NCBI GenBank assembly: GCA_003661385.1
Contig: QMWA01000005.1
Coordinates: 1-27,982, forward strand
Direction: 5' to 3'
DNA from: Thermoproteota archaeon
Lineage (GTDB): Archaea; Korarchaeota; Korarchaeia; B14-G2
DNA: 27,982 nt
Positions 19,253 to 27,982 of the stretch are shown one piece after another. The number at the start of each line of letters is the position of its first letter. Within the stretch, counting starts at the first letter, position 1. Under the pieces are notes generated by a model. The model saw only the letters and a list, made by a program, of their open reading frames with translations. It did not search any database and was not told where the DNA came from. The translations under genes and the position numbers were made by a program.

Positions 19253-21823
19253 TGTCCTCTTCTCGGCTTCTATGACAGGCTCATGCTCCACACCGAGTTG
19301 GCTGAGTATGCTTGCAGCTATCCTCCTCCCTATGCCAGGCACCCTCGCCAGCTCATCTATGCTAGCTGAGGCTAGGTCACTTAGAGACCTGTATCCTGCT
19401 TCATAGAGCCTTCTCGCCCTTACTCTGCCTACCCCCTCCAGCCTCACTAGCTCTAGGAGCTCTTCTCTAACCCCATATCTCACTCTCCTCTCGAGCTTGG
19501 AGATTAGCATGGACTCCTCTACTAAGCCTAGAGCTTTAGCTATCATTGAAGCTGCCTTCAGCAGCCAGCTTGCAGAATCGACTATTCTCGCTAGGTCTCC
19601 TAGCTGGACGTTCAGCTTCTCCTCGATTTCTCTCTCACTTTCCTCGTTTATCCAGCTCATGAGAGCAGCTGTCTTCTTGACAGCTGACAGGAACTCACCG
19701 TACTCTAGCTCATCTAGGGCAGTAGACACCTCAGGCTGGGGCAATTCATCTGAGTGAGCGTAGTAGAAGTCTAGGAGCCTTCTGACCTCGCTTCTCCTAA
19801 CTGGCAGGTCCTCCATATCTGGTGCTGATGCCACCATGTACATGAAGGATATGGGCGTCTTCTTGGATTCGTGCAGCATACGCCTGAACAAGCTTGCTGA
19901 CTTTGGGTCGATGTACGATTTGGCTGTGGCCTGGCCTAATCTGGTTGCTGAAAGCAGGCTGTTTTCCTCTGATATGAAGCTATCAGCAGCTAGGTAGCTT
20001 ATCACCTTGGTGATGCTCTTCTCCACAGCCTTCTTACCGTACTGGACTGCGAACAACGTCTTTGAGAACCTGAGGATTACTTCACCTTGAGCCAGCGGCC
20101 CCCATGTCGCTATCATGCCTAACACATGCGACCTCAAAGCTGGGGGGTTAGAGAGCTTTGACTCTATTGGCTCAGGCTCCCCTCTTATGTAGCTCTCGAG
20201 GAGAGCATCTAGCTCGGCTCTAGACCTGGCTACTATCACAGCCTCTCCTATTTCATCGTATCCTGGCCTACCAGCTCTGCCACAGTTGTGGACGACTACC
20301 CCCTCCGTGATGTAAGCCGGAGTTGGAGCTAGAGTCAGGTTGTACACTCTCTCAGGGTAGCTTAGCTCATGTGTCCATGATACCCTAGCCCACCTGACTT
20401 TGCCGTCCTTGATCACTGCTATCTTGGATTTCTTAGAGAGCGAGGCAGCTGGAGCCCATCCTGTAGGCGTTAGAACAGGGTGCTCTGGGGTTAGGGTTAT
20501 GTAGCTGCTGCCTGCCTTGACCTCTATGACACGGTTAGCTATCCTGCTGCCTGCTCTAGCTATGTAGCTGACACCGGTGTTAGGGCTGGGAGATAGCACA
20601 GCTTCTCCAGGACTCAAGTTCCTGATTTCAACTAGCCCCTGTGGCGTACATACCCTCAAGTCTCCTGGCATGCACATTTGCTTGTACTCCATTACGGGTA
20701 TAGGCCTCTGCCCTATTCCAGCTTCATATCTCCTGTAGTCTCTGATCACCACCAGCCTAGCTGGTAGGTTTACTCCAGCTGCCAGAGTTGGCGTTGAACA
20801 CACTACCTTGATACATCCCTCTCTAAACAGCTCCTCGACAGCTCTTCTGGCTTCGTGGGGGAGCCCTGCGTGGTGGAACGCTATGCCATACTTCATGCAG
20901 TCTGCTAGCTCTATTGTGGTTGGGGTTGCTGGGATCTTGTCCTCTAGCTCTCTTATCATGGAGTATACTCTCTCAGCTTCCTTTCGTGAAAGTATCCTCT
21001 TGAGGCGGCGAGATAGTCTCATAGCAGCCTTCTGAGCTCTAGACCTGCTTCCATAGAAGACTAGTGCTTGCCCTCCCTTCTTTATGTAATGCCTTACCAG
21101 CACTTCTACTGGGGGAGCTGACCGCTTAGCTTCTGAAAGAGGCTTAGTGCCTGCAGGGTAGTAGATTGACCCATTTAGGTAGACACCTTCCAGCAGTGGG
21201 ATAGGCCTCCAGTCGCTTACTACAGGCTCTGCTTCAAGCCACCTCGCTAGCTCGCTTGCGTTGGATACTGTTGCGCTCAGCCCTATTACCTGGCAGCTTG
21301 GAGCCTCGGTCTTCAGGTTAGCTACTATGACCTCGAGGGTACCACCTCTTGTCTCGCTTGAGGTGAGGTGTATCTCGTCCAGGACCACGCACGTTAGTGC
21401 CTGCAGCATGCGGGGGCTATGCCTTGTGAGTGAGTCGAACTTCTCGTATGTCATGACAAGCAAGTCGCTCTTACCTGGGTCTGTGTCTCTAGACGTGTAG
21501 TCACCGAGGCTTATTGAGACCTTCACTCCGAGCTCGCTGTATGTCCTCTGGAACTTATCGTACTTCTCACTAGCTATGGCCTTTAGTGGAGCAAGATACA
21601 CTGCTCTTCCCCCTCTTAGTATGCTGCTCACTGCAGCTATCTCTCCCACTAGGGTCTTTCCGCTAGCTGTTGGCGCAGCTAGGAGGATGCTCTTGCCATC
21701 TAGTACACCGTGCTTGATGGCCTGCTCTTGAGGAGGGTAGAGCTCCCTGTATCCTGCTTTCAGAAGAGCTTTCTTGAGAGCAGGCTCTATTGGAAGATCT
21801 TCAACTAGCATCTTGACTACCAT
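19229..21823 (-). CDS. hel308: Hel308-type superfamily 2 DNA helicase, interrupted by an intein
   Basis: Hel308 is a 3'-5' ATP-dependent helicase that acts at stalled forks and in recombination. The precursor is 864 residues. Removing a 130-residue intein (residues 384-513) leaves 734, normal for the family. Visible are the Q-motif region (YPPQEQAI), Walker A APTASGKT (about 50-57), DEIH at 149-152, motif [11 protein letters not shown], motif IV-like [12 protein letters not shown], and motif [13 protein letters not shown], split by the intein. The C-terminal helix-hairpin-helix reads [15 protein letters not shown] and [15 protein letters not shown] 21823 overlaps the end of mcm by 7 bases behind GAGGA, so it is cotranscribed with gins23-mcm. 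It overlaps purB by 24 bases at its 3' end. Confidence 0.95.
20285..20674 (-). mobile_element. Minimal Hel308 intein (130 aa, no endonuclease)
   Basis: This in-frame intein starts at Cys (residue 384, [17 protein letters not shown], block A) and ends with VVVHN before the extein residue Cys+1 of CGRAGRPG. Block B is LTPEHPVL, with the conserved TxxH. Blocks F and G are [22 protein letters not shown] split at the end as His-Asn. No LAGLIDADG domain is present; only about 30 residues join the splicing halves. The insertion splits helicase motif VI, where Hel308 usually reads QMAGRAGRP; the Ala position is the catalytic Cys+1 here. At 130 residues it is near the lower size limit known for natural inteins. 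All splicing residues look intact, so it is probably active. Confidence 0.93.
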
Positions 21824-24800
21824 CTGGTCCTCATTACCCTGCCTGGTGCAGGCTCGTATATCGTCCCCCTGTCATACTTCTCCCTATACACTCTTAGTAC
21901 AGCTCTCCTTATTCTCTCGGAGTCTAGCTCAGGGTTACTGGCCTTGATGGCGTTTACAACGCGGTCTATCAGCTCGTCTCTTGGGACGCCCATCCTTGGA
22001 GAGCCTGCCCCTGATTCAGCTGCCTCGGCTAGCATCTCATCCAGCACCCTATCGAACACCTCTTTAATCATCACACTGGAGGAAAATACTCCTGCATGTA
22101 CTGCTCTTATGTCTCGTCTTCCTGTGAATGGGTCTATTGCTACGTCAGCGTACATGGCTTCCATCAGAGTTATAGCTGCTAACGCGTCCTCTGCTGTCAC
22201 TTTGCTCCTTAAGTGCATTCTTGCTCTAGCCATTGCAAGCCTGACTAAGGCTTCTAGCTGCCTTGGGGTCACTGCTAGAGACTTCTTTATGTCTCTGCTT
22301 TCATCTCTCAGCTTGACATAGTAGTCCTCAAGTATCTTGCTAGCTTCCTCTGTCATCCTAGGCTTTATCCTCTGCCTAGCATATGCTATGTACTTCCTTA
22401 GGAGTTCTGGCGGGATTATTGGTGTTGCTAGAGCTACATCTCCTCCTCTGGTCTTGAGGATGTGCTTTGCTACAGCCCTATCCTTCTGGGGCTCAGGGAT
22501 GTCATGTAGCCTTAGAATAAGGTCGAACCTTGATGTTATAGTCGGAGGCAGGTTCACGTTCTCGGTTATTGGAAGCTCTGGGTTGTATATCCCATCTTTT
22601 GGGTTAGCAGCAGCTATTATCGTTGTCCTAGCGTTTAGCGTCGCTATTATCCCAGCCTTCGCTATGGATATTGTGTTGTGAAGCACTAACTTGTCTCCTA
22701 TTATGGAGTGGGTGGGGTTGACTGCTATGTCATAGACCCATCTAGCTCTACAGGGCTCTACTCTCTTGGAGGAGACTTCAGCCCATGCTAGCTCTGATTC
22801 CAGGAGGAACATCGCTGACTTGAGCACATGAGATCCCTCTTCCGTGAGGCAGGCCTTCTCTGCAGCTCTTATGGCTTCCAGCGCCTTAGCCCTGCTTGAG
22901 GATATGGCTTCAGGAGATGCTGATGTCAGGCCTGCTTTCTGGGCTAGTCTAGCTAGCTGCTCTGCTAGTGGAGTAGGCAGCACCCTACATCCTGGCGATG
23001 GAGCTGCAGGAGACCAGTCGCCTACATTCACAGACTCAGCTGGGACGGTCTCCAGGAAGCCGTTACTCCTCATTATGTAGACTGGGTGGTCTGGGGTAAC
23101 TCTCAGCACGCTGCCATTCGAGTACTCTATGGTGATGATGTTTGGTGGAGGCTTATGGCGGCTCACTGCTGTGGCGTCAGCTGGGAAGACTTTCTTGAAG
23201 TCTGTTGTAAGCACTCTCAGCTGCCCTTTCCTCAGCGAGAGGATCTCGCAGTCTATCCCCTGCTCTACTCTGGTCTTCTCTTCAGCAAGTAGCTTATCTA
23301 CTAGCCCTCCGATCTGAACAAGCTCTCCGCTCTCGAGCTTGATAAGCTGAGATGGATGGAATGACTGCTGCTCCATTGCCTCGTGTATCGCTACCCTGTC
23401 ATTCTTGTCCATCTTGTCGAACTCGTCTATTGCAGCTATCCCTCTGTCTGCTATGACTAGTGCGCCAGCTTCTAGAGACCACCCTCCAGTCATAGCATCT
23501 TTCACTACAGCAGCTGTCAAGCCGGCTGCTGTAGACCCCTTTCCGGTCGTGTAGATTGCTCTTGGAGCCACCTTCGCTATGAACTTAAGTATCTGGCTGT
23601 TGTGTAGCACTATGAAGTTGCCTATGAAGTTCAGGGTGCTGCTTACCTGGATGTCATAAACCCAGCTTTCACCCTCAACCTCAGATATGCTCACTATCCT
23701 GTCCCAGCTTACATGTGAGTTGGCTACCGCCTTAGCCGCCTGCACGAGCTTTATGTTCTCAGGTGAGGTGAGCTCCTTGCACTTCCTTATCACGTCTAGG
23801 AGCTGCCCTCTTCTTAGCCCGCATCTCTTGGCTAGCTCTTTCACTTCTCTGGCTGATCTGGCTGCGTGAGGGTCTGTTGCAGCAAGCAGCGTATCCTTGG
23901 CTTCCCTTATCTTTCTCTCAGCAGCCCTGACGAGGGCAGCTAAGTATTCTCTCTTGAGGGGGGCACCACTTTTCTCTGCTCTAGCTAAGGTGGATGCTGG
24001 TGCACTTATATCCCTGTACTTGAGCCCGAGCTTCCTCTTGAGAGCTGAGATCAATGAGGATACGCATGGTATTTTGGAGCTTCCATCCACTGTTGGGGTT
24101 TCCTGTGTGTTTATGTGCTCTATTTGGGGCTTGGTTAGGGTTATGCTGTGGTCGCTGTGCTCTTTTGCCACTATGCCTACCTTGAGAAGGAGAAGCCTTA
24201 GGTTGCTTAGATCACTTCTGCTCTGAAGCCTTATCCTAATGGCCTTCCCGTTCTCGTAGCAGCTTAGGAAGCCTCTCAGGAACGCTGCTACCTCTTTTCT
24301 GCCTGCTGAGAGCATGCTTGCTGGGATCTTCCCCCTACCAGCTATTAGCTCGGGGGCTCTCTCCTCGATAAGCTCGCCAAGCTTCTTAGACCTCCAGTAC
24401 ACTAGTATCCCACGCTTTGACTGGGTGATGACCTTGACCTGGCTCTTCACGTTGAGCTTCTGGAGGGCGCTCTTAACCAGCTTTAGGGCATGCCTGCTGG
24501 CTCTCAGCTTGAAGCTATACCAGCTTTTGGACCTTTTGACCTCACCTCGAGCTGCGAGAACTCCGATCAGCGTGTAAAGGGAGCTGTCAACTTCCTTCTC
24601 TTGGAGCTCAGGAGCAGGCAGGAGTCCTAGTATGGCTATGTAGTCTCCTGGCTTGAGGCCTTCTGCCTTCACCGGCGTGAGCATGCCATCTCTGCTCTTG
24701 AAGAAGAGGTGGTCTGGTGTGACTTTGATTTCCAGCCCAGATTCGGTCTTGATCTTCAATAGCTTCCCGCCTGCAGGCTTTTTAGCAATTGCATCTGGTA

Positions 24801-25929
24801 TGGTGAACACAGCTTTTCCGTCCTTGGTGATTGTGAGAACTTCTGGTGGATCTGCTCTATTGTATAGGTCCTCTATGGTGATGAGGCCTTCTCTGGTTAG
24901 GACTAGCGTGTCTCCTGCTACGCACTTCGCTGTCCCTGGGTCACCAACTAGAAGTATGTTTATCTCGCCTCTTATCCTTGTTCCATCTGGTAGCTCTATT
25001 GGTACTCCACCGAAGAGAGCATATGCCACTCCTCTCTTGACCACATCCCAGCCGTATATTGATGGAGCTATCGACTGCACTATCAGCTCCTCTAGCTTTG
25101 GCGACCTCGCTAGTTCAAGTATCTTCTCTTCTTCCTCTGGTGTTATCTCTATCTGCTCAAACTCTCTTGGGGGTGTCTTTACTGAGTTCACATCTAGTAT
25201 CATGTTGAATATCACGTCTACTCTTCCCTTTCTCTTCTCTACGAGCCTTGGTATGCCGACCACTGTCACCCGGTCGCCGGGCTTCACTACATCGACTAGG
25301 TCGTCTAGGAGAATGCAGTCTATCGAGCGGGGCATTGTCCCGGGAGGGAGCTCCTCAGGCATCTCCTGCAGCTTTATCCTCTGCCAGTCTAGAAGCTTGC
25401 TTTCCTCCTGGACTAGCTTGAGGCTCCTGCTCCCGCAGCTCTCACATACAGGAGGCTTAGAAAGCCACCTGCTTGGCTGAGGCACCTCTATATCTGCTCC
25501 ACAGCTCTCACATCTGAACTTAGCTACATCGAGTTTGAAGGCTACCTCTGAGCATGACGTGACTATGCCTTTGACTGAAATCAGCTTGTTTAAGTGCTTA
25601 GATGATACCCCTCTAAGAGGGGTTTCAGCCATTAAGTCTACTATACGCGGATAGAACTTGGTTGCCTCCGCGTAGTCTGGGTCTATTATAGACACTCTTC
25701 TTCTTATGACCTCTGATGCCGCTGGAAGCACCTTATCAGGGTTGTCTACTAGCTCTCTGGCCAGCTTCATGTTAAAGCTCCAGAGGTCTCTGTAGCTTAT
25801 CTCGAGAGACTTCCTCCTCTCAACGGGAAGCTGGCCTATTTGCTCGTAGTATTTCCTTCTTCCATTCTTGTCTCTGAACTCTATGAAGAACTCCTCGAAG
25901 GCCTCTTCTATGCTCCTCCTGTCCATCAT
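21817..25929 (-). CDS. mcm: MCM replicative helicase with two inteins
   Basis: MCM is the hexameric AAA+ helicase that unwinds DNA at archaeal forks. The precursor has 1370 residues. Removing inteins at residues 336-777 and 856-1085 leaves 698, the usual archaeal MCM length. The N-terminal domain has a C4 zinc ribbon (Cys 140, 143, 162 and 165) and the OB-fold segment [14 protein letters not shown]. The AAA+ core shows Walker A GDPGTAK/S (split by intein 1), Walker [25 protein letters not shown] (split by intein 2), sensor 1 TTIIAAANP and the arginine finger [10 protein letters not shown] winged-helix C-terminus follows. It starts with ATG at 25929, one base after the gins23 stop, and overlaps hel308 by 7 bases. 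Confidence 0.96.
22675..23364 (-). mobile_element. MCM intein 2 (230 aa), Ser1/Thr+1, no endonuclease
   Basis: It starts at Ser 856 ([20 protein letters not shown]) directly after EAMEQQ and ends with KLVLHN before Thr+1 of TISIAKAG. Block B is [10 protein letters not shown] (intein residues 88-97). Blocks F/G are [22 protein letters not shown]. No LAGLIDADG motif is present. Residues about 131-196, where an endonuclease would sit, hold an Ala/Glu-rich helical linker ([23 protein letters not shown]). Ser in first position and Thr at +1 differ from the Cys1 chemistry of the other two inteins in the window. The insertion lies between Walker B and sensor 1. Confidence 0.93.
23599..24924 (-). mobile_element. 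MCM intein 1 (442 aa) in the Walker A loop, with degenerate LAGLIDADG endonuclease
   Basis: It starts at Cys 336 ([20 protein letters not shown]) and ends with IVLHN before Ser+1 of SQILKF, so it splits GDPGTAK from SQ. Block B is KVTPDHLFF (intein residues 68-75). Blocks F/G are [10 protein letters not shown] and [13 protein letters not shown] two-motif LAGLIDADG-type domain lies at about residues 110-270. Motif 1 is LIGVLAARG, with Arg126 where the catalytic Asp should be. Motif 2 is LRGFLSCYE, with Tyr223 at the Asp position. A helical, HTH-like region (about 285-340) follows. The splicing residues are intact and the nuclease looks dead, so it should splice but not home. Confidence 0.94.
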
Positions 25930-25930
25930 G

Positions 25931-26311
25931 CTAGCTCCCTCCTGAGGCCTGTTGTATGGCGGTATCCACTAGCAGCCTAGCTAGCTTAAGCACTACACGC
26001 TCTTCTGGTGTGAGCTTACGCTCCTCACTCTCACTTATAGATGGTGAAAGAGCCATTCTAAATACCTTTCTGAGCCTAGCTCTCACAAGGTCTTCTAGAT
26101 AGAGCCTCTCTCTTCCCGCTAGAGCAGAGCTGCTAAGCTTCAGCTGGGAGTAGAAGTCTTCTGGCAGAGGCTGAAGCGTATCCTGCACTCTCTCAAGCTC
26201 AAGCTTCTCAGGCAGATCCAGCTCCTCTGCTTCAGCTAGCTTTGCAGCTCCATGCTTAATGAGAACCGATGCAAGCCAGATTGGCAGCCTAGATACCTCA
26301 CCTCGTGACAC
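25931..26311 (-). CDS. gins23: GINS complex subunit, Gins23 type (true start probably further upstream)
   Basis: GINS binds MCM (and GAN/Cdc45) to form the archaeal CMG-like replicative helicase. The region from GTG 26311 encodes 126 residues: the Gins23-type [19 protein letters not shown], then [11 protein letters not shown] and a helical end with [17 protein letters not shown]. The frame stays open upstream to a stop at 26471. It translates there as [30 protein letters not shown], which resembles the N-terminal beta domain of Gins23. The protein therefore probably begins before 26311, but no in-frame ATG, GTG or TTG exists between 26312 and 26470. Candidates are ATT 26425, ATC 26362 or CTG 26359, or a frameshift. 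It abuts mcm by 1 base, as in Sulfolobus. Assignment to Psf2/3 rather than Gins51 is moderately sure. Confidence 0.72.
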
Positions 26312-26470: not shown

Positions 26471-27982
26471 TTAGTCTAGTAGGATGTGCTCTATTAGCTC
26501 TTTCTCGACGTCCTCTAGGAGGGGTATTCCTGTCACTTTGTATGCTCTTTCGGTTAGAGAGGCTAGGTCTCTTCTGTCTATGAGATCTAGCCTCCACTTC
26601 CTGACGCCAGCTATCAGCTGCTGCAAGCCTACCCTTATCCTGTCCCAGTAGGTGTAGAGGCCTATTGCTCCAACTGGGATCTCCTTGACTTTCTCTCCAA
26701 ACATCTGCTCTAAGTCATGGTATGTTATGAACATGGTCTCAGGCTTTTCACCATACAGCTCCTTGAAACTAGGTGGCAGCTTGCCTTCTGAGGCTAGATT
26801 TGTGAAGTACTTTGCCTTGAATACTGCTGTCAGTGGTGCTCTGGCTTGAGCTATCGCCTTGACGTAAGGCTTTCCTGCGAAGTTGCTCATTGCTGCTGCC
26901 TTGAACAGCTGAGTTTCATTTACAAACCCTCCTGCCATCACTATGTCAGGGACATACTTACCACGCTTCCTCAGCAGCTCACAGCAGCTGAGGACCTGAG
27001 CCTCAAGGTACACGGTGGGCGTCCCACACTCCATCATCATGGGGACTGGGCTCGTCTCTGTTCCTCTATCTGCACCGTCAAATGTGACTGCATCCACCTT
27101 CGCTTCTGAAGCAGCTTTCATGGTGAATGCGACTACAGCAGGCCTGTATGAACCTGTCTTAAGGAAGGCCTCCTTGGCGCCCATCTCTCTCAGCTTCTCT
27201 ACGTCCTCTACAAAGGACTCTATAGTAGGCATGCCTATCCTGCTGTGCCTCTCGAATGTCCTGAACTCTCCCCTCTTGAATGCAGCCTGCACCTCCTTGT
27301 CCTCTGGGTCTGGGATTTACGACATAGCCGCGTTTCTTCAGCACTACGGCCTTCTCCAGCGAGTCTACTCTGACCTCTCCGCCTATTGCCTTAGCTCCCT
27401 GCCCCCACTTCCTCTCTATGATGTTCACTTCGAGCTTGGATATCGCATACTCATCTACATCCAGCCTCTGGTCCTCTACATTCGTCTGGACTGCTATGTC
27501 GCCGTGCTTTCCATCCCAGAACTTCCTGTAGGACTCTATCCTGAACTTCGTGTCCTCGCTATGTGTTACCTTTCCATTTGTTATCATGCTGTTGGGATCC
27601 ATGCCACAGACGTTCTCTCCTACAACCTGAATTGCGCCAGATATCGCTGCCCTGGCAGCCAGTCCATCCCAGTTCACCTTCGCCACTGTTGTGGAGCCTA
27701 GTGCAGCTATCATCAGAGGGATCTTCATCGGCACTCCGCCTACACTCGTCGAGACATCAACGTTCGGGAATATGGCCTTATCTGGATCTGGCTCTATGCC
27801 CTTAGCTCCCCTGACTTCAGCGAGTATCTGAAGGTGACTCCAGCCTAGGCCGTAGTCCCTGTTAGATGCTGCTGTGCTGTAGCTGAACTCCTCTGCAATA
27901 GTAGCACTTCTCTGCCTCTGAACGCTGACAGGCTTATCTCACAGAGGACTGGGCAGTGGTCTAGGCATATAGGGCACATCCC
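26471..27982 (-). pseudogene. Archaeal glutamate-synthase-type FMN protein (GltB central domain), 5' truncated, two frameshifts
   Basis: The translated pieces match the archaeal glutamate synthase FMN/Fe-S domain. From the window edge comes a Cys motif CPICLDHCPVLCE, then SAFRGREVL in one frame. The second frame continues as EEFSYSTAASNRDYG, then VGENVCGMD, QTNVEDQRLDVDEY and ERKWGQGAKAIGGE. The last returns to the first frame with PDPEDKEVQAAFKRGEF, ERHSRIGMPT, SPVPMM and MAGGFVNETQ, and ends at 26471. The first break is near 27893-27902. The second is at the TTT of 27316-27318, where removing one base restores VIPDPED. Both are next to short T runs, so sequencing error is as likely as true decay. 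A Gly-to-Arg in the FMN-site segment DGADRGT is also unusual. The N-terminus lies outside the window. Confidence 0.8.

Follow-up and report, generated by a model that had tools for sequence, protein, structure and literature searches.

Three probably independent, homing-dead inteins at adjacent helicase hotspots of an archaeal gins23-mcm-hel308 block

The window analyzed here is a stretch of 27,982 nucleotides that constitutes one whole contig of a 206-contig MAG (91% complete, 1.9% contaminated). Its minus strand carries a tight block of three genes, as the first-pass annotation had proposed:

25931..26311, minus strand: gins23, first gene in the block, at least 126 aa (true start possibly upstream); NCBIfam Gins23 match, E 9.8e-14, model positions 21-153
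21817..25929, minus strand: mcm precursor gene, 1370 aa; joined exteins 698 aa
19229..21823, minus strand: hel308 precursor gene, 864 aa; joined exteins 734 aa

A single base separates the gins23 stop codon from the mcm ATG, and the start of hel308 and the end of mcm share 7 bp. The MCM encoded here was the only one detected in the source genome. A promoter and terminator scan of the locus yielded nothing above chance, and a plasmid search matched only distant MCMs of other archaea. Among the class relatives compared, the mcm-hel308 neighborhood is widespread regardless of whether the genes bear inteins, so that the two insertion hotspots lie side by side with inteins or without. Elsewhere in the window, at 26471-27734 (minus strand), two overlapping reading frames resemble the halves of one glutamate-synthase-like gene, which suggests a frameshift, either real or an assembly error.

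Junctions recomputed from the DNA confirmed the presence of three inteins in mcm and hel308 (carets mark insertion points):

24924..23599, minus strand: MCM-a intein, residues 336-777, 442 aa; Walker A, GDPGTAK^SQILK; C1, TPDH, VYD, HN, +1 Ser
23365..23598, minus strand: MCM middle extein, 78 residues (SQILK...HEAMEQQ), containing Walker B
23364..22675, minus strand: MCM pre-sensor-1 (PS1) intein, residues 856-1085, 230-aa mini-intein; HEAMEQQ^TISIAKAGI; Ser1, TPDH, VYD, HN, +1 Thr
20674..20285, minus strand: Hel308 intein, residues 384-513, 130-aa mini-intein; motif VI, QM^CGRAGRPG; C1, TPEH, VYN, HN, +1 Cys

The same junctions reproduced the reported total of 802 intein residues and both joined-extein lengths. 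The claim that each intein interrupts an ATPase motif held for Walker A and motif VI, and the second MCM site, which lies between Walker B and sensor 1, was refined to the N-terminal edge of the PS1 hairpin; a location in the helix-2 insert was considered for this site and dropped. Alignment to intein-free homologues, the check on extein rejoining that the first-pass annotation had called for, showed all three sites unbroken. The joined MCM exteins gave one continuous NCBIfam match (8-691, 824.8 bits) as opposed to three in the precursor, the joined Hel308 exteins a single match (5-720, 770.4 bits) as opposed to two, and solved MCM and Hel308 structures align to the joined exteins through Walker A, the PS1 hairpin and motif VI.

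All three inteins display class-1 features, namely Cys or Ser as the first residue, a TxxH block B, and a terminal HN followed by Cys, Ser or Thr. Across the whole genome, the intein C-terminal model TIGR01443 returned exactly four matches, all above its cut-off, corresponding to the three inteins of the window and one in HerA. The Hel308 intein reached 22.1 bits against the Pfam intein model, below the cut-off of 35.8, and could therefore be missed by automatic annotation; its identity is supported by the C-terminal block, its same-site kin and the junctions. A structure model of the PS1 intein built with three relatives (pLDDT 85.6) found its best PDB match in 6rpp, the P. abyssi CDC21-1 mini-intein (TM 0.86 by target), while the HINT fold of the MCM-a intein was read from the sequence profile only and the single-sequence model of the Hel308 intein, with a pLDDT of 42, was of too low quality to be used. 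Each intein presumably excises itself from its precursor, most likely constitutively at growth temperature, with predicted spliced peptides across the rejoined junctions of GDPGTAKSQILK, HEAMEQQTISIAK and YKQMCGR.

The best matches of each intein were same-site inteins of other archaea and not its neighbors at the locus. On the intein tree the three site groups cluster (3 changes, versus a shuffled mean of 12.8), and the nucleophile sets (first residue/+1) differ between them (C/S, S/T and C/C). The MCM-a intein has its closest kin at the same Walker A site, the PS1 intein falls in a 9-row clade of PS1-site inteins (support 100/99), and the best match of the Hel308 intein is another motif-VI intein (L077_h, E 2.9e-13), in a group whose support on the tree is weak (31/94). 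The idea that a single intein duplicated inside the locus was rejected, because the closest kin of each sit at the same site in other genomes. Together, these comparisons suggest that the three inteins are independent class-1 lineages of three site-specific allele families, which forms part of an overall reading that we consider probable as a whole.

Each site has counterparts in known systems. The Hel308 of M. jannaschii is listed as intein-bearing. We found the QM^C site of Hel308 (Hjm) filled in four other genomes (G026, G050, G178 and G196), in two of them with a full endonuclease; the window copy is the smallest of the five at 130 aa, and the +1 host Cys is common to all. The MCM-a/CDC21-1 inteins of Haloarchaea and Pyrococcus occupy the same Walker A residue (lysine^Ser) and have class-1 splicing residues like the window MCM-a intein, which differs in that its 442 aa include an inactive endonuclease-sized insert and that it groups with nine further copies, all endonuclease-dead, in a lineage-specific clade. 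By position, 17 residues past the DE-D Walker B motif, the QQ^T site corresponds to residue 415 of Hfx. volcanii MCM, which is one of the haloarchaeal sites A-D (PMC3972481); the site harbors Ser1 inteins with a +1 Thr or Ser in several archaeal phyla, whereas the window copy is a 230-aa mini-intein. The MCM of P. abyssi likewise contains two endonuclease-less inteins (164 and 268 aa; PMC6801210), and MCMs with two inteins, some of them endonuclease-less pairs, are known from the literature (PMC6801210, PMC10643990, PMC3972481). All three inteins are fresh members of known intein alleles, and the three-intein locus is one more case of a known pattern.

A LAGLIDADG endonuclease retaining both catalytic acids is absent from all three inteins. 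Two of them (PS1 and Hel308) are mini-inteins without an endonuclease domain, while the MCM-a intein has kept the length of the domain, at about intein residues 110-375, and lost both acids:

24538..24573, minus strand: degenerate endonuclease block C of the MCM-a intein, catalytic acid lost; aligned with GEG-bearing L076, L087 and L093
24247..24282, minus strand: degenerate endonuclease block E of the MCM-a intein, catalytic acid lost; aligned with D[ACG]EATV-bearing relatives

The sequences are AARGEV in block C and SCYENG in block E, at positions where relatives from other phyla have GEG and D.EATV. None of the window inteins thus appears to be mobile, judging from these motifs. Mobile-type members exist elsewhere at all three sites, comprising MCM-a inteins with GEG/EATV (L076, L087, L093), PS1-site inteins with LAGLIDADG motifs (L035, L036, L038) and full-length, LAGLIDADG-bearing Hel308 motif-VI inteins (L117, L118). 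The window inteins are therefore late, decayed members of three mobile families.

The history of the Walker-A intein can be followed within the class. Its class members form one side of a branch against those of other phyla (100/99), and the endonuclease acids were lost in 10/10 sampled class copies. On the MCM extein tree the source genome sits beside all other class members, early branches of the class carry the MCM-a intein, and the 13 genomes lacking MCM inteins group in a single clade; the supported intein pairs L081/L084 and L080/L082 are compatible with this tree. The empty sites of the 13-genome clade are clean (for example, GDPGVAKSQLLK). In the simplest reading of these trees and alignments, the MCM-a intein appears to have been inherited vertically in the class and lost once, cleanly, in the 13-genome subclade. 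This apparent vertical inheritance of an endonuclease-dead Walker-A intein is new here, as are the constraint on its dead region and the Hel308 +1 Cys association described below. For the PS1 intein, the best tree separates the window copy from that of G020, and joining the two was not rejected (AU p 0.15).

In one species pair (G020 versus G025), the dead endonuclease region had a pN/pS of 0.25 (95% 0.20-0.32) compared with 0.12 for the N-terminal splicing part, values that give only a rough size of constraint because they derive from a single pair with near-saturated synonymous sites; the window copy itself has no close relative for such a comparison. Within these bounds, the substitution pattern indicates that the dead region remains under constraint, for which an aid to splicing is the simplest explanation, as some thermophilic inteins require an endonuclease domain or a long linker (PMC6801210).

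Occupancy of the three sites varied among relatives. G020 and G025, of the same class, carry both MCM inteins and an intein-free Hel308; some other class members have the MCM-a intein alone, and the 13 genomes of the clade described above lack both MCM inteins; there are also class members in which neither mcm nor hel308 is interrupted. In G026, of the same phylum, only Hel308 is interrupted. A distant archaeon sharing only the domain (G050) has all three sites occupied (480, 528 and 146 aa), but its two helicase genes lie on different contigs, hel308 adjoining a thermosome-like gene. A Hel308 profile search of 394 archaeal genomes identified motif-VI inteins in at least five among the readable matches, weaker ones possibly having been missed, and the two remaining genomes of these five have intein-free MCMs. 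By these sequence surveys, mcm and hel308 are occupied independently of each other. An enrichment statistic for triple occupancy was set aside, as it is confounded by intein load and kinship.

The reading that we favor, and regard as probable, is that the locus holds three independent, homing-dead class-1 inteins at adjacent hotspots, constitutively spliced relics of earlier invasions. Ancestral homing endonucleases would have inserted the inteins into conserved motifs, after which the Walker-A intein would have descended vertically with a dead endonuclease and been lost a single time in one subclade, as the tree and alignments suggest. The inteins may have persisted because their removal must be exact and splicing renders them nearly neutral, and the constraint on the dead endonuclease scaffold would reflect its retention as a folding aid for the splicing domain. 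The genes mcm and hel308 would merely be adjacent hotspots.

Against such a relic reading stands the argument that long retention without homing is also expected of a useful element. The Walker-A intein could have been domesticated, its inactive scaffold and HTH-like tail being selected as a folding aid or as a brake that slows MCM maturation by sensing DNA or a partner, with the intein-losing subclade having replaced this control; we judge this to be improbable. Whether inteins persist as selfish or as useful elements is an open question, for which the class offers a natural test, as it combines a dead-endonuclease MCM intein in most lineages, one clean-loss clade and measurable constraint on the dead part.

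Alternatively, one formerly active endonuclease in the block may have spread its neighbors by co-conversion of mcm and hel308. The three inteins do lie inside 4.6 kb, a plausible conversion-tract length, and co-homing has been posed as a question in the literature (PMC10643990), but the same work reports that active neighboring inteins impede each other's homing and offers no evidence of haloarchaeal co-homing. The seemingly vertical descent of the Walker-A intein in the class and the filling of all three sites in G050, where mcm and hel308 are on separate contigs, also speak against such hitchhiking, which we consider unlikely.

The role of Walker A and motif VI in ATPase function is established by biochemistry. 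Given the insertion points, a precursor in which either of these motifs is split is very likely to lack activity, and splicing is likely essential for haloarchaeal MCM function (PMC3972481). On similar grounds, the first-pass annotation had proposed that splicing rate could gate replication and fork repair together, a notion that can be stated as coordinated conditional splicing, in which a joint post-translational switch would delay active MCM and Hel308 under stress. The insertions do fall in ATPase or DNA-contact motifs, the inteins persist without homing, and the dead endonuclease region is constrained. Moreover, published work on mycobacterial DnaB (PMC6195587) and the Pyrococcus RadA intein (PMC5790916) documents conditional splicing of individual inteins in ATPases of replication and repair, so the general idea is not new. 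The mycobacterial DnaB double inteins and the RadA intein resemble those of the window in residing in replication or repair ATPases, but stress- or temperature-dependent splicing was measured in those systems, whereas at the window locus it is only an idea. The proposed joint control is not supported; against it speak the separate lineages and differing nucleophiles of the three inteins, the uncoupled occupancy of mcm and hel308 among relatives, and the 13 same-class genomes that live without either MCM intein. In particular, the PS1 intein uses Ser1 and Thr+1, so catalytic-cysteine chemistry cannot be a shared trigger, and a search for a stress-sensing feature common to all three inteins found none. 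Removal of the polB intein of Haloferax volcanii caused no growth defect (reported in PMC7776575). We therefore view a joint switch as very unlikely.

The Hel308 insertion is associated with a host Cys. Cys occupies the +1 position in 5/5 Hel308 motif-VI inteins and in 0/31 distinct intein-free Hel308 sequences, which have A, M, V, L or S instead; motif VI of the spliced Hel308 thus contains a Cys associated with the intein. A comparable +1 dichotomy, Ser versus Pro, has been published for MCM-d (PMC10643990), and the Hel308 +1 Cys provides an example of an intein linked to a fixed host residue within a helicase motif. The same five inteins, two of them full-length, carry Asn instead of Asp in block F (VYN or VFN). 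That at least one of the three inteins is splicing-dead, leaving a precursor that is dead or only cleaves, might be argued from this atypical block F (VYN) of the Hel308 intein and from the absence of the block-F histidine in both this intein and the MCM-a intein, but is extremely unlikely given that VYN/VFN is kept in all five, that the host motifs are all intact, and that loss of MCM function would presumably be lethal with a sole MCM detected in the genome.

Several further inteins came to light in the survey. The MCM of G057 carries an unrelated intein at the PS1 site QQ^T (L092:1669-2715; Cys1, Gly-Asn end, 349 aa), the product of a separate invasion of that site. Another insertion point in MCM lies right before Walker B (HN^CIDEFDK; L085, L086, L087) and is distinct from haloarchaeal site C, which sits four residues after Walker B. 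Other archaeal Hel308 intein sites were located near residue 350 (L133, L134, L136, L138, L139) and within motif VI after GR (L116). Two additional loci, L121 and L124, encode four and two tandem Hint domains, respectively, each ending in HNKG and joined by glycine linkers; these arrays precede a membrane segment and possibly a Tim44-like C-terminal region (named by eye). The fourth intein of the source genome (L001; G000:C30, 8636-9298) spans 239 aa and interrupts the Walker A motif of HerA (GK^S) beside a NurA-like gene, also named by eye, and all four inteins detected in this genome reside in replication/repair ATPases.
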